A DNA stretch of 33,026 nt from Candidatus Nomurabacteria bacterium RIFCSPHIGHO2_02_FULL_35_13 (GCA_001785515.1 MFTY01000006.1:1-33026), one strand, 5' to 3'; counted from the first letter of the stretch, positions 8,879 through 23,602 are shown. Numbers and translations: made by a program. Notes: generated by a model not told the origin, from the sequence alone.

Positions 8879-8906
8879 TTGACAGATAGCTAGGAAAGCA
8901 TAAAAT
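8879..8906 (+). promoter_or_regulatory. Promoter of the cobalamin riboswitch operon
   Basis: A perfect -35 TTGACA (8879-8884), a 16-nt spacer and TAAAAT (8901-8906) place the transcription start at about 8913, just before the aptamer. This is one of the best sigma-70-type promoters in the window. Confidence 0.75.
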
Positions 8907-8929
8907 TAAGAAGTTCGTTTAAAAGTTGT

Positions 8930-9053
8930 AAGAAGTGATTGAGGAAACTGGTTAAATTCCAGTACAGTGCCGCTACGGTAAGCTCCGACTTTAAGTTGGA
9001 GACAAGTCCGATTATCAATCATTTTAATTTTCCCGAGCAGGATATCCCTTCTT
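8930..9053 (+). promoter_or_regulatory. Cobalamin riboswitch aptamer
   Basis: The core matches the conserved cobalamin-riboswitch sequence: GGAA, a P5 hairpin ACTGG (8947-8951) / CCAGT (8959-8963) with loop TTAAATT, the near-consensus GTGCCGCTACGGTAAG, a GCTCC / GGAG hairpin, and AAGTCCGA. The core is closed by GTGATTGA (8935-8942) / TCAATCAT (9015-9022) and by an outer AAGAAG (8930-8935) / CTTCTT (9048-9053) stem. A TTTAA in 9021-9030 could pair with loop 5 as the kissing partner. Position 3 of ACtGT reads G, a small departure from consensus. It lies directly ahead of transcobalamin-like genes. Confidence 0.85.
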
Positions 9054-9068
9054 ATTTTTGAAGGCCCC

Positions 9069-9094
9069 AAAATTCTGCACGGCAGAATTTTTTT
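9069..9094 (+). terminator. Intrinsic terminator of the riboswitch
   Basis: AAAATTCTGC (9069-9078), loop ACG, and GCAGAATTTT (9082-9091) form a perfect 10-bp stem running into a T-tract, 8 nt before the ATG at 9103. An upstream GCAGGAT (9037-9043) can pair with ATTCTGC (9072-9078), giving a mutually exclusive antiterminator. Confidence 0.8.
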
Positions 9095-9102
9095 GTTTTA
9101 CC

Positions 9103-9537
9103 ATGAAAAAAGACAATAAAAAAATAATATGGTTGGGTTTTGCTGTTTCGCTTTTTTTCTTTTTAATTTTTGTTTTTACAAAAGATGTCGGTCAAAATAC
9201 AAGTTCTATTTCCCCTCCTTCGCCTGTTTTAATTCAGACAGAAAAAACAGTTCAGGCCTTTCTGGAAATTGATGGAAAAAAGTTAGAAACAGCAGTAGTA
9301 GAGAAAGAAAGGGTTTATGATTTCATGGTGAAACTAAGAGAAGAAGGAAAAATAAATTTTAAAGATAAAACTTATTCTGGAATGGGAAAACTAATTAAAG
9401 AAATAAACGGAATAAAAAATAGCAGTGAAAAAAATTGGATTTATTATGTAAACGGTAAAAAAGCAACAATTGGAGTTTCAAATTATCAAATAAAGCCGGG
9501 AGATGTCGTATCCTGGAAGTACGAAAAGAATTATTAA
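9103..9537 (+). CDS. Membrane-anchored DUF4430 (transcobalamin beta-domain-like) protein
   Basis: The 144-aa protein has a short basic N-terminus, one membrane helix or uncleaved signal (about 9-29, IWLGFAVSLFFFLIFVF), a proline/serine linker and a C-terminal DUF4430 domain (about 45-144). The family pattern is clear: VYDFMVKLREEG, YSGMGKLIKEINGI, NWIYYVNGKKATIGVSNYQIKPGDVVSWKYE. DUF4430 is related to the small beta domain of transcobalamin and intrinsic factor, which caps bound cobalamin. An ATG at 9058 would make the terminator stem part of the coding region, so I choose 9103. Control by a cobalamin riboswitch supports a corrinoid-binding role outside the membrane. It sits 40 nt before the larger toroid protein and likely shares its transcript. 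Confidence 0.87.
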   Translation: MKKDNKKIIWLGFAVSLFFFLIFVFTKDVGQNTSSISPPSPVLIQTEKTVQAFLEIDGKKLETAVVEKERVYDFMVKLREEGKINFKDKTYSGMGKLIKEINGIKNSSEKNWIYYVNGKKATIGVSNYQIKPGDVVSWKYEKNY

Positions 9538-9546
9538 TAAATAGTT

Positions 9547-9568
9547 AATCTACGCTATAGCGTAGATT
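9547..9568. repeat. 22-bp perfect palindrome between the two transcobalamin-like genes
   Basis: A 22-nt perfect palindrome centred on CTATAG (half-site AATCTACGCTA). It begins 9 nt after the DUF4430 stop codon. No T-run follows, so a terminator is unlikely; it may be a processing hairpin or a palindromic repeat. A second CTATAG-centred palindrome lies at 26318-26335. Confidence 0.8.
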
Positions 9569-9577
9569 GAAAAAATT

Positions 9578-11458
9578 ATGAAAAAAATATTTTTATCGCT
9601 TAGTATTATTATTGGTTTTGTTGGTATGTTTAATTTTACTTACGCAGCAGATCCAGTAAACATAACTTTAAAAGTTTATTCAGGTGATACTGTTTTATTT
9701 GATGGTCCTAAAACAATTACACCTTGTGCTCAATCACCAGACATTATAGATCCTCTTCAATTTACCGTAAATGGTAAATGTGCTATTGAACAATCTGGAT
9801 TATCGAATACATGGACATGGAATTATACACCTAGTGGTTGGTTAGATGAACTTGGAGGATATACAACTACTCCTGATTACTCAAAATCTTGGAATTATTT
9901 TGTTAATTTAACTTATGGACATGGAAGTGACGCACTTAATCAATATAATCCTTCTGCTAATGATGAACTTCTTTTAACTTATGATTCTTATCCTCTTCGT
10001 ATTTCAGCTTCTCAAAATTCTGGAGCCATAGGAGATACGATAATATTTACTGCCGAAGAAGAAAGTACTTTTGATGCAAATTATAATATGATTTGGACTC
10101 CATTATCAGAAGCTATGATTACATTAGATGCCCAATCTTGTGTAACTATTACCGATGGAACTTGTTCTATAATCTTAAATACGTCTGGTTCTCTAAATGC
10201 AGTAGGGAGTAAAACTTTACATGTTCCATCAGCTAATGTAAATATAGAAGTTTCTGCGCCAGACCCAGAGCCTGAACCAGTGCAGCATAATTCAAGCGGA
10301 AGTTATGTAAACTATATACCAACAACTATCGCAAACAATATTACAAAATCAACTTTTGATTTGAAAAAAGCTTTTGAATTTATAATTTCACAGCAAAAAG
10401 AAAACGGGTCTTTTGGAGAAGATATATATACCGACTGGACTGCTTTGGCATTGGCATCAGGAAATTATCAAGACCAAACAATAAAATTAATTAAATATTT
10501 CGGAGAATCTAAGACAGAAAATAAACTTGTAACGGATTATGAAAGACGCGCAATGGCATTAATGGCTTTGGGCTTAAATCCATATAATATGAACGGAGAA
10601 AATTATATTGAAAAAATAACCGCTAGTTTTGATGGAAAACAATTTGGTGATATAAATCAAGACAATGACGATATTTTCTCGCTGATTGTTCTCTCAACCG
10701 CTGGATTCACGGAAACTGAAAAAATGATAATTGATGATATATCTTTCATATTAAGTAAACAGAAAGAAAATGGATCATGGGATGAATCAGTAGATATGAC
10801 TGGCGCTGCTATACAAGCACTTGCAAATACCACGGAAAAAAGTTGCTTTCTTGTTGGGTCGCTGTCTGCGCCTGCTGGTGCAGCGCTGCCTCTCGGCTCG
10901 CCAGCCTGCGAGACATCCAAAAATAAAGAACTTTTTTCCGCGGTGAATAAAGCAAAAGAATTCCTGAAACAAAACCAAAAAGATGATGGCGGCTGGGGAA
11001 ATGTTTCTTCTACTGCTTGGGCTATGCAAGGGATAATCGCATTATCGGAAAAACCAGAAGATTGGAAAAAAAATGATAAGACTCCTTTTGATTACCTTGC
11101 ATCAAACCAGGATGCGGATGGAGGAATAAAAAATGAGTATTTGCAAAATAGGATTTGGGAGACGAGCTATGTCATAACTGCCCTGTCCGGTAAAACTTGG
11201 AATCAAATAATGTATAAATTCAACAAACCGACCCAGGCTCAGCAAGAAGCAAAGGAAAAATCATCAAAGCAAATAATTGCAAAAAATATTACACAAAAAA
11301 CAAAAATAGCAGATTCAAAAAAAGAAATACAAAAAACAGAAAATCTATCGCCTCAAAATACAGCGACAGTAATTAATTCTTTGGATGAAAAAAGTACAGA
11401 ACCGATAAAAGACAGCTGGTTTAGAAATTTTCTGAATAAAATCTTCAGTATTTTTTAG
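9578..11458 (+). CDS. Secreted transcobalamin-like protein: DUF4430-like domain plus alpha/alpha toroid
   Basis: The 626-aa protein has a signal peptide (about 1-23, ending FTYAAD), a DUF4430-like beta domain (about 25-145, with WTWNYTPSGW, SWNYFVNLTYG and NPSANDELLLTYD), a beta-sandwich-like segment (about 145-230), a proline linker, and an alpha/alpha-toroid region (about 258-555). The toroid carries prenyltransferase/cyclase-like repeats: FIISQQKENGSFGEDIYTDWTALAL, KQKENGSWDESVDMTGAAIQAL, KQNQKDDGGWGNVSSTAWAM and NQDADGGIKNEYLQN. A lysine-rich tail ends in a possible amphipathic helix (SWFRNFLNKIFSIF). Transcobalamin and intrinsic factor also combine an alpha6/alpha6 barrel with a beta cap, in the opposite domain order. 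Position downstream of a cobalamin riboswitch supports corrinoid capture. About 22 residues in the toroid (near SLSAPAGAALPLGSPACE) come from a GC-rich inserted element. Confidence 0.85.
   Translation: MKKIFLSLSIIIGFVGMFNFTYAADPVNITLKVYSGDTVLFDGPKTITPCAQSPDIIDPLQFTVNGKCAIEQSGLSNTWTWNYTPSGWLDELGGYTTTPDYSKSWNYFVNLTYGHGSDALNQYNPSANDELLLTYDSYPLRISASQNSGAIGDTIIFTAEEESTFDANYNMIWTPLSEAMITLDAQSCVTITDGTCSIILNTSGSLNAVGSKTLHVPSANVNIEVSAPDPEPEPVQHNSSGSYVNYIPTTIANNITKSTFDLKKAFEFIISQQKENGSFGEDIYTDWTALALASGNYQDQTIKLIKYFGESKTENKLVTDYERRAMALMALGLNPYNMNGENYIEKITASFDGKQFGDINQDNDDIFSLIVLSTAGFTETEKMIIDDISFILSKQKENGSWDESVDMTGAAIQALANTTEKSCFLVGSLSAPAGAALPLGSPACETSKNKELFSAVNKAKEFLKQNQKDDGGWGNVSSTAWAMQGIIALSEKPEDWKKNDKTPFDYLASNQDADGGIKNEYLQNRIWETSYVITALSGKTWNQIMYKFNKPTQAQQEAKEKSSKQIIAKNITQKTKIADSKKEIQKTENLSPQNTATVINSLDEKSTEPIKDSWFRNFLNKIFSIF
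10854..10920. repeat. GC-rich structured insertion inside the toroid gene
   Basis: Outer pairing TTGG (10854-10857) / CCAA (10917-10920) and TGTCT (10863-10867) / AGACA (10911-10915) encloses two hairpins: GCG-c-CTGC-TGGT-GCAG-CGC (10868-10886) and CTC-GGCT-CGCC-AGCC-tgc-GAG (10892-10912). It is much richer in GC than the gene around it and is translated in frame as an alanine/proline/glycine-rich stretch. Confidence 0.75.
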
Positions 11459-15753: not shown

Positions 15754-15846
15754 AAGGATTTTTGGTAAAGAATTTTAAGAGTCGTGGGTCCCCTGTCCTT
15801 ATGACTCCGAGGGCGAAGGCTCAAAAATTTTTTACCAAAAATCCTT
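15754..15846. repeat. Structured palindromic element family B, copy 1
   Basis: Perfect 16-bp arms AAGGATTTTTGGTAAA (15754-15769) and TTTACCAAAAATCCTT (15831-15846) enclose a 40-nt core (15781-15820) that matches the core of copy 2 (23537-23576) at 39 of 40 positions. The core starts GTCGTGGGTCCCC, has a hairpin GTCCT/AGGGC and ends GAAGGC. The arms of the two copies are unrelated in sequence. Confidence 0.88.
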
Positions 15847-16609: not shown

Positions 16610-17809
16610 TTATTGGTATTGAATATAAATAGGTTTAGGATTTAATTTCAATAAATCATTCGGCGTCATTAAAACGGTGCCAGTTGTCAAAATATCGTTT
16701 TTGTAAAATAATTTAAAGCCAGTAAATTGAACAGGTTCTTTGTAAACAAATTGCTGATAAGTATTTATTTTTTTGGCTGCCCCTCCCCAACCATCCATAT
16801 TCATAACAATCTGCACTTCTGGTAATGGTTTTATTTCTTTATAATTGGTAACCATTTTCTGCGTATAACGATGAATGATAAATATTTTCGGAGTCAAGTT
16901 ATTTTCTTTTACAATTTTTGCCAAATAATTTGCTGCAAAATTTATATCAGCCGCGTCGTATGTGCCTACAACTTTTCCAGGTCTAATACCGTTTTTCATG
17001 GAAAATTCAGGGTCAATGCCTAAATGAACTTGTGGCATCTTAAAATATTTTTCAAGCAATGGTAGTTCGGTTTGTAAATCACTAAAGCCGACTTGAATAT
17101 CTAAAAAAACAATAGCATTTATTTTTTCCGCCATTTTAATAATCTTACCTATTTCCGAATATGGCATGCGAGCCCTATATTTGCCATCTTGCCCCGCGCT
17201 TTCTTGCGCTACGACTGCAATGTAATGAAGCGCTGGAATAACCGGAGTTGATGGGTCAGCATCCTGCCATTTTTTTGCTTCAGCTTGTAATTTTTGCAAC
17301 ATTTCACTTTCAGGATATTCTCCCAACGCTCCCATTTTTGTTGAATACAAATTTCCATAATAAGCAACAATGCGGTTGAATGGTAGGATGGCTCCGGCAT
17401 TAGGATAAACAGTTTTTACCGGCCAGAGATGCGTTCTGGTTGGTTGCGGAGGCTCGCCCGTAGGGCTATGCCCGAGGGAAACAGGAACTTTGGTAGTTTT
17501 AGTTATGGATTTGCCATTTTGGTCTTTCTCAATAGTTTTAACGGTTTCAAAAACAATTGGGTCAGGCGGGTTATTGGCCAGTTCTGTCATTTTTTTATCG
17601 TAAGCTATGGTGTCTAACGGCAAGAGTTCCGGTGATAATAAAGTTTTTACAATTTCATTTATCTTGATTTTTTCCCCGTTTGACACATTGCTGCTAAAAA
17701 ATTCTGGAAGAATAAAAAATATAAAAAGTGCAATTAAGAAAACTACAAAAAACCAAAAGTGGGTACTTCTATATGTACTCTTTATCTTAGAAAAAATCTT
17801 ACCTTTCAT
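16610..17809 (-). CDS. Exported TIM-barrel-like conserved protein, function unknown
   Basis: From the ATG at 17809 this is a 399-aa protein with one N-terminal membrane helix (about 20-37, FWFFVVFLIALFIFFILP) and a long exterior region. The region from RIVAYYGNLYSTKMGALGEYP onward has the rhythm of a TIM barrel, with IPALHYIAVVAQ, AIVFLDIQVG, VHLGIDPEF, VVGTYDAADINFAANYLAKIV, KIFIIHRYTQ, and VQIVMNMDGWGG as successive strands. Acidic residues at strand ends (D in FLDIQ and GIDPE) would suit a hydrolase, but this is inference. A related family exists in other bacteria without assigned function as far as I know. SLGHSPTGEP in the N-terminal linker is encoded by the 31-nt repeat also present in the deoxyhypusine-synthase-like gene. 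An ATG at 17827 is possible, but the -10 at 17818-17823 favours 17809. Confidence 0.75.
   Translation of the reverse strand: MKGKIFSKIKSTYRSTHFWFFVVFLIALFIFFILPEFFSSNVSNGEKIKINEIVKTLLSPELLPLDTIAYDKKMTELANNPPDPIVFETVKTIEKDQNGKSITKTTKVPVSLGHSPTGEPPQPTRTHLWPVKTVYPNAGAILPFNRIVAYYGNLYSTKMGALGEYPESEMLQKLQAEAKKWQDADPSTPVIPALHYIAVVAQESAGQDGKYRARMPYSEIGKIIKMAEKINAIVFLDIQVGFSDLQTELPLLEKYFKMPQVHLGIDPEFSMKNGIRPGKVVGTYDAADINFAANYLAKIVKENNLTPKIFIIHRYTQKMVTNYKEIKPLPEVQIVMNMDGWGGAAKKINTYQQFVYKEPVQFTGFKLFYKNDILTTGTVLMTPNDLLKLNPKPIYIQYQ
17451..17481. repeat. 31-nt in-frame repeat element, copy 2
   Basis: Matches 923-953 at 30 of 31 positions (one A/G difference, silent, AGT/AGC serine). Translated in the same frame as SLGHSPTGEP. 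Confidence 0.85.
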
Positions 17810-23509: not shown

Positions 23510-23602
23510 TAAAGTAAAATTCAAAAGATTTAAAGCGTCGTGGGTCCCCTGCCCTTATGACTCCGAGGGCGAAGGCGCTGAAATCTTTTGAATTTTACTT
23601 TA
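23510..23602. repeat. Structured palindromic element family B, copy 2
   Basis: Perfect 22-bp arms (23510-23531 and 23581-23602) enclose AGCG/CGCT pairing and the 40-nt core at 23537-23576 that is nearly identical to the copy at 15781-15820. Core hairpin GCCCT/AGGGC replaces GTCCT/AGGGC of copy 1, so pairing is kept. It fills the gap between ftsX and pyrG. Confidence 0.9.

Follow-up and report, generated by a model that had tools for sequence, protein, structure and literature searches.

A riboswitch-controlled pair of transcobalamin-like proteins in a Nomurabacterium and its likely role in corrinoid scavenging

How might a bacterium with a genome of 554 kb, which appears to be unable to synthesise vitamin B12, sense, capture and use this cofactor? 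The question is raised by a locus of Candidatus Nomurabacteria bacterium RIFCSPHIGHO2_02_FULL_35_13 (GCA_001785515.1, 94.7% complete), in which a cobalamin riboswitch precedes the genes of a membrane-anchored protein, P1, and a secreted protein, P2. Both genes lie in MFTY01000006.1:1-33026, the whole analysed stretch of 33,026 nucleotides (nt), here called the window. An initial annotation had assigned this DNA to a bacterium of the Candidate Phyla Radiation (CPR) and had proposed that the two proteins capture corrinoids at the cell surface. The origin was guessed correctly, since the P2 relatives that bear names are nearly all Candidatus Nomurabacteria or other Paceibacteria/Parcubacteria, and the interpretation as surface capture is supported. 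The locus is likely an operon repressed by adenosylcobalamin (AdoCbl), which would serve the scavenging of corrinoids at the surface, their import by an S-component and their use by a ribonucleotide reductase (RNR) in a Patescibacterium without B12 synthesis.

The arrangement of promoter, riboswitch, terminator, P1 and P2 is confirmed as real and well above chance, because it recurs in related loci and because riboswitch and terminator are kept despite changed stems. A search of 100 genomes, in which only full matches were counted, identified P2 homologues in 33 other genomes of the same genus and in two of the same order, and a DUF4430 gene is located directly upstream of the P2 homologue in 35 of 36 loci. 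The same gene order, for which a search of CPR genomes had been suggested, was found in 71 of the 80 named loci from Patescibacteria, a set that comprises Nomura-, Kaiser-, Taylor-, Lipton- and Magasanikbacteria as well as others. One of the loci, L132 (JAMPXW010000002.1), is filed as 'Burkholderiales bacterium' and has a neighbourhood of the Nomurabacteria type; its genome record is probably mislabelled.

Upstream of P1, the suspected cobalamin-type aptamer was recovered by Infernal with Rfam as a match above the gathering threshold (Table 1), the only one in the genome. Its helices show both-sided, compensatory changes in 7 of 19 predicted pairs, and Rfam detects the riboswitch in 10 of 14 related loci. 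A family model built from 26 aptamers of close relatives, R1, matches in 63 of the 80 named loci; every match lies on the coding strand, no more than about 165 nt from the first operon gene. As R1 shares members with the nearest loci, its Nomurabacteria matches are partly circular, and Rfam was therefore run on 12 distant loci; this check and the distant loci are not circular, and AdoCbl, AdoCbl-II or Cobalamin matches were obtained in five of the 12, at the same place. The annotated intrinsic terminator is present as a hairpin with a T-run, immediately before the P1 start codon (ATG at 9103). Terminators follow 49 of 64 riboswitches on the 3' side, and their stem sequences differ while complementarity is kept, which speaks for transcription control. 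The annotated promoter likewise exists as a sequence match, although promoter-like sites are no commoner in the region than in shuffled sequences; the Rfam alignment overlaps its -10 end, and relatives carry a TATACT-like element at the -10 place. Three variations on this layout were observed. In L115 (5271-5520), two tandem R1 matches upstream of P1 possibly form a tandem aptamer. In L072, L078 and L088, the riboswitch is followed by a toroid-less P2 sibling of 250-290 amino acids (aa), which is composed of the beta domain and a linker and ends in the same hydrophobic helix as P2. In L075, L087 and L093, a cobalamin riboswitch precedes a glutamate-rich, low-complexity open reading frame of 470-510 aa.

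P1 has the N-terminal hydrophobic helix and the DUF4430 domain that had been described, the latter scoring 49.6 bits for PF14478 (cut-off 23.8). In its AlphaFold2 model (mean predicted local distance difference test score, pLDDT, 88.8), a helix at residues 71-80 is followed by strands at 86-91 and 95-101. The asserted kinship of DUF4430 with the beta domain of animal transcobalamin is borne out by this model, which superposes on the beta domains of transcobalamin, haptocorrin and intrinsic factor with 1.2-1.7 Å over 96-101 residues and Z scores of 15-17; the best fits have 1.2-1.3 Å over 96-98 residues, with Z up to 16.9. The next structural matches are the bacterial DUF4430 protein 3u7z (Z 13.6) and generic beta-grasp folds (at most 8.9); as judged from the model, the match to the transcobalamin-type beta domain is specific. 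Transcobalamins are also the only, though weak, matches of the P1 profile among PDB sequences. The structural matches include an isolated human beta domain with bound cyanocobalamin (5np4); a single domain of this type is thus able to carry the ligand.

P2 agrees with the annotated secreted protein in having a signal-peptide-like N-terminus, a DUF4430-like beta domain and an alpha/alpha toroid, with an immunoglobulin (Ig)-like region in addition (mean pLDDT 83.2). The predicted topology of its beta domain is that of P1, with two strands, a helix, a hairpin and further strands. This copy falls below the PF14478 threshold, and the relative L177 passes it with 27.1 bits. The system had been termed split: it does consist of two genes, but the term does not strictly apply, because P2 by itself combines a beta domain with the toroid. 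P2 passes PF01122, the family of eukaryotic cobalamin-binding proteins, with 28.5 bits (cut-off 25; best stretch residues 445-547), as do L031 (26.9) and L177 (26.4), while L060 (18.1) and L046 (21.4) remain below. The toroid-then-beta order of PF01122 proteins is reversed in P2, where the beta domain precedes the toroid. The C-terminal helix has a transmembrane segment as its counterpart in distant relatives. Because in some relatives the same riboswitch precedes a P2 that lacks the toroid, the beta domain is suggested to be the core, and the toroid an improvement gained later or lost. The toroid insert of P2 is G+C-rich and gives short matches elsewhere in many genomes of the same genus; from its sequence, it has the appearance of an insertion element dispersed among coding sequences.

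Genes of B12 metabolism occur within five genes of the toroid in 27 of the 80 named loci: a CbrT-like S-component of the energy-coupling factor (ECF) type in 19, a DUF6580 protein in seven, the AdoCbl-dependent class II RNR (RTPR) in 18 and a PduO-type adenosyltransferase (ATR) in 11. A frequent arrangement is S-component, RTPR, ATR, riboswitch, P1 and P2. In the set of 100 genomes, the toroid, the riboswitch, the S-component, RTPR and ATR occur together (toroid with riboswitch, p 4e-14; toroid with ECF-S, p 2e-11), although these p-values ignore shared ancestry and related genomes are not independent. No genome among the 100 has the ECF-S without RTPR. The uptake step had been expected to be new or encoded elsewhere, and the candidate is indeed a CbrT-like S-component on another contig, whose gene adjoins the locus in relatives. 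Its profile has a sole match among solved structures, 6FNP (CbrT; E 3e-4). The RTPR scores 275 bits for TIGR02505 (E 8.5e-82), under the equivalog cut-off of 340, and 28.9 bits for the class II insertion domain PF21995 (cut-off 27). It is the only RNR found in this genome, PF02867 and, for class III, PF13597 having given no match; PF02867 alone had misleadingly indicated the absence of any RNR, and RTPR was found with a relative's RTPR as the query. No B12-binding domain was found in this genome, and thus no further B12 enzyme with such a domain. In L138, L152, L153, L162, L183, L186 and L190, DUF6580 membrane proteins near the toroid replace the CbrT-like S-component. Their size, membrane character and position make them candidate S-components or B12 transporters.

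Table 1. Coordinates of the features of the P1/P2 locus (positions in the window) and of the associated genes on other contigs of the genome
Feature	Position	Strand	Details
Promoter-like site, TTGACA-16-TAAAAT	8879..8906	+	consensus match only, 11/12 positions
Cobalamin riboswitch RF00174 (clan CL00101)	8894..9066	+	36.1 bits vs gathering 31.5
Intrinsic terminator (expression platform), AAAATTCTGC-ACG-GCAGAATTTT + T-run	9069..9091	+	between aptamer and start codon
P1, membrane-anchored transcobalamin-type beta-domain (DUF4430) protein	9103..9537	+	144 aa
P1 N-terminal transmembrane/signal-anchor helix	9115..9180	+	residues 5-26; model, sequence
P1 DUF4430 domain, transcobalamin beta-domain fold	9238..9534	+	residues 46-144; structure comparison
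Perfect 11-bp palindrome	9547..9568	.	between P1 and P2
P2, secreted beta domain + Ig-like region + alpha/alpha toroid protein	9578..11458	+	626 aa
P2 N-terminal DUF4430-like beta domain	9656..10027	+	about residues 27-150; predicted topology; PF14478 in homologues
P2 alpha/alpha toroid	10340..11218	+	residues 255-547; PF01122, PF13243, structure comparison
P2 in-frame toroid insert	10832..10942	+	about residues 419-455; missing from homologues; low pLDDT
P2 conserved C-terminal hydrophobic helix, WFxxxLxxIFxxF type	11417..11452	+	also in toroid-less siblings
RTPR (AdoCbl-dependent class II RNR)	C16:13845-16151		other contig, this genome
ATR (PduO-type adenosyltransferase)	C15:25562-26107		other contig; TIGR00636 151.9 bits
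CbrT-like ECF S-component	C8:7472-7936		other contig, this genome

The basis of the proposed mechanism is formed by sequences, predicted folds, conserved gene order, the riboswitch with its terminator, and co-occurrence. At low cellular AdoCbl, the terminator behind the riboswitch would not form and P1 and P2 would be transcribed, as expected of an OFF switch. The anchored P1 and P2, the latter presumably kept close to the membrane through its C-terminal helix, would then bind a corrinoid outside the cell, and the beta domain might close over the toroid like a lid, in the manner of transcobalamin. The CbrT-like S-component may take over the corrinoid and would bring it through the membrane with no recognisable ECF motor, as is the case for BtuM. 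The ATR would convert it to AdoCbl for use by the monomeric RTPR. Concerning the supply, a 2021 groundwater study counts cobalamin with those vitamins for which most metagenome-assembled genomes of Patescibacteria do not lack the biosynthesis (PMC8672522). For the group studied here, the sequences argue against B12 synthesis, because CbiC was found neither in this genome nor in 60 relatives.

Several observations weigh against this reading. In this genome, the S-component, RTPR and ATR are all located on contigs other than that of P1 and P2. Some riboswitch-bearing relatives lack the toroid, and several of the 100 genomes have RTPR with neither toroid nor riboswitch; the P1/P2 pair is thus not the sole way to obtain B12. 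The toroid of P2 is slightly closer to class II terpene cyclases than to cobalamin carriers. The S-component also passes the riboflavin S-component family PF07155 (31.9 bits), and for this reason its corrinoid substrate is deduced from context. Finally, a divergent ECF module could have escaped the searches.

This last point leads to the strongest of the alternatives, in which the capture system is the same, an ordinary ECF or ATP-binding cassette (ABC) motor was missed and the idea of a solitary S-component is wrong. CPR proteins are divergent, the genome is not entirely complete, and SLBB operons of other bacteria contain CbiO/CbiQ genes (PMC1796856). However, EcfT (CbiQ) was not found in this genome, and in none of the 100 relatives, of which several are essentially complete, did any match exceed the cut-off; the same search was positive in 10 of 14 control genomes. 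Nor was an EcfT gene recognised in the inspected toroid neighbourhoods, where genes were read by eye and part was scanned. A missed motor is considered rather unlikely. BtuC (FecCD) was likewise not detected in this genome and exceeded the cut-off in two of 60 genomes. Motor-free transport by an S-component nevertheless carries real uncertainty, because CbrT itself needed its module: without it, no growth was obtained in E. coli (PMC5997447). A precedent for solitary transport is BtuM, with which E. coli takes up B12 although no ECF module is present (PMC6072759). An even chance is given to the broader proposal of motor-free B12 import in Patescibacteria, in which a riboswitch-controlled surface transcobalamin of two proteins would load a solitary S-component (CbrT-like or DUF6580, depending on the lineage), the cargo would sustain the synthesis of DNA precursors by RTPR, and growth would depend on corrinoids from neighbours or hosts.

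A second alternative, which is improbable, regards P2 as an extracytoplasmic terpene-cyclase-like or other toroid enzyme, acting for example on a glycan or lipid, that is merely regulated by B12. The annotated resemblance of the toroid to the transcobalamin family holds in that intrinsic factor is within reach (Z 20.9), with transcobalamin at up to 19.9; the best matches, however, are drimenyl diphosphate synthase (24.6) and squalene-hopene cyclase (23.7), and GH76 mannanases reach 20.0. As cyclases, cobalamin carriers and mannanases all match, the toroid fold alone does not name the ligand. P2 is recognised by cyclase models of both NCBIfam and Pfam and passes PF13243 and PF07678, and a direct comparison of its sequence with the PDB returned cyclases and chance matches, with no transcobalamin. 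The string DNDD at residues 362-365, of which N363, D364 and D365 are invariant, may recall the DxDD motif of cyclases. Against an enzyme stand the secretion of P2 and its fusion to a transcobalamin-type beta domain, its passing of PF01122 as well, the control by a cobalamin riboswitch, and neighbours that are genes of B12 uptake, adenosylation and consumption in many lineages. Moreover, the partner P1 is predicted from its model to be a beta domain specific to cobalamin carriers.

Least probable of all is that P1 and P2 bind another ligand, such as a metal chelate or cofactor, with DUF4430 as a general domain for soluble ligands and B12 only as regulator: diverse ligands have been attributed to the SLBB superfamily (PMC1796856) and the gut-bacterium DUF4430 crystal structure 3u7z is termed a putative metal-binding protein, but the regulation by the product pool, the conserved B12-metabolism neighbours and the closeness of the S-component to CbrT among solved structures speak against it.

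Corrinoid scavenging by P1 and P2 can be compared with several known systems. The animal carriers transcobalamin, haptocorrin and intrinsic factor (PF01122 and DUF4430) share the beta domain, which superposes in the model, the alpha/alpha toroid and, presumably, the role of extracellular B12 carrier. Unlike in these carriers, the beta domain of P2 comes before the toroid, and the separate, anchored P1 provides another; P2 has an extra Ig-like region, control is exerted by a bacterial riboswitch, and there is no animal receptor. The initial annotation knew of no such system in Patescibacteria, and no account of B12 capture by transcobalamin-like proteins in this group was found in the open literature, seen mostly as titles and abstracts. 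A precedent exists in other bacteria: Burroughs et al. (2007) described bacterial SLBB proteins with an N- or C-terminal toroid and paralogous operon partners, predicted to scavenge B12, in organisms usually without B12 synthesis and generally with CbiO/CbiQ in the operons (PMC1796856). The P1/P2 system is of the kind predicted there, sharing the combination of SLBB domain and toroid, the paralogous SLBB partner, the apparent want of B12 synthesis and the predicted scavenging. It differs in lacking a detectable CbiQ, in its partners (CbrT-like S-component or DUF6580, RTPR and ATR), in its occurrence in Patescibacteria and in its cobalamin riboswitches. ECF-CbrT of Lactobacillus delbrueckii (6FNP; PMC5997447) resembles the S-component, as its sole solved-structure match, but no ECF module is detectable in this genome or its relatives. 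BtuM is likened by its role as an S-component-like protein for B12 uptake where EcfT is absent; it was studied in the Gram-negative Thiobacillus denitrificans (PMC6072759).

New are the Patescibacterial setting, the control by a cobalamin riboswitch, the coupling to an AdoCbl-dependent RNR and ATR, the apparent lack of an ECF motor and the two alternative S-component-like partners. Nutrient acquisition by Patescibacteria is largely unknown, and the system offers a concrete route for one essential cofactor, comprising sensing, capture, import, activation and use. B12 exchange becomes a likely basis of dependence, no RNR other than RTPR having been found in this genome. The transcobalamin architecture is extended to a deep bacterial radiation, and two S-component-like families, including DUF6580 of unknown function, become candidates for B12 transporters.

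Elsewhere in the window, two repeats were noted. A 31-nt repeat (923-953 and 17451-17481) is 97% identical, with a chance expectation of 0.01, and encodes in frame the peptide SLGHSPTGEP in two unrelated proteins; similar peptides also occur in the linkers of the toroid-less P2 siblings. A 67-nt repeat (15767-15833 and 23523-23589) is 87% identical and has a G+C-rich core.

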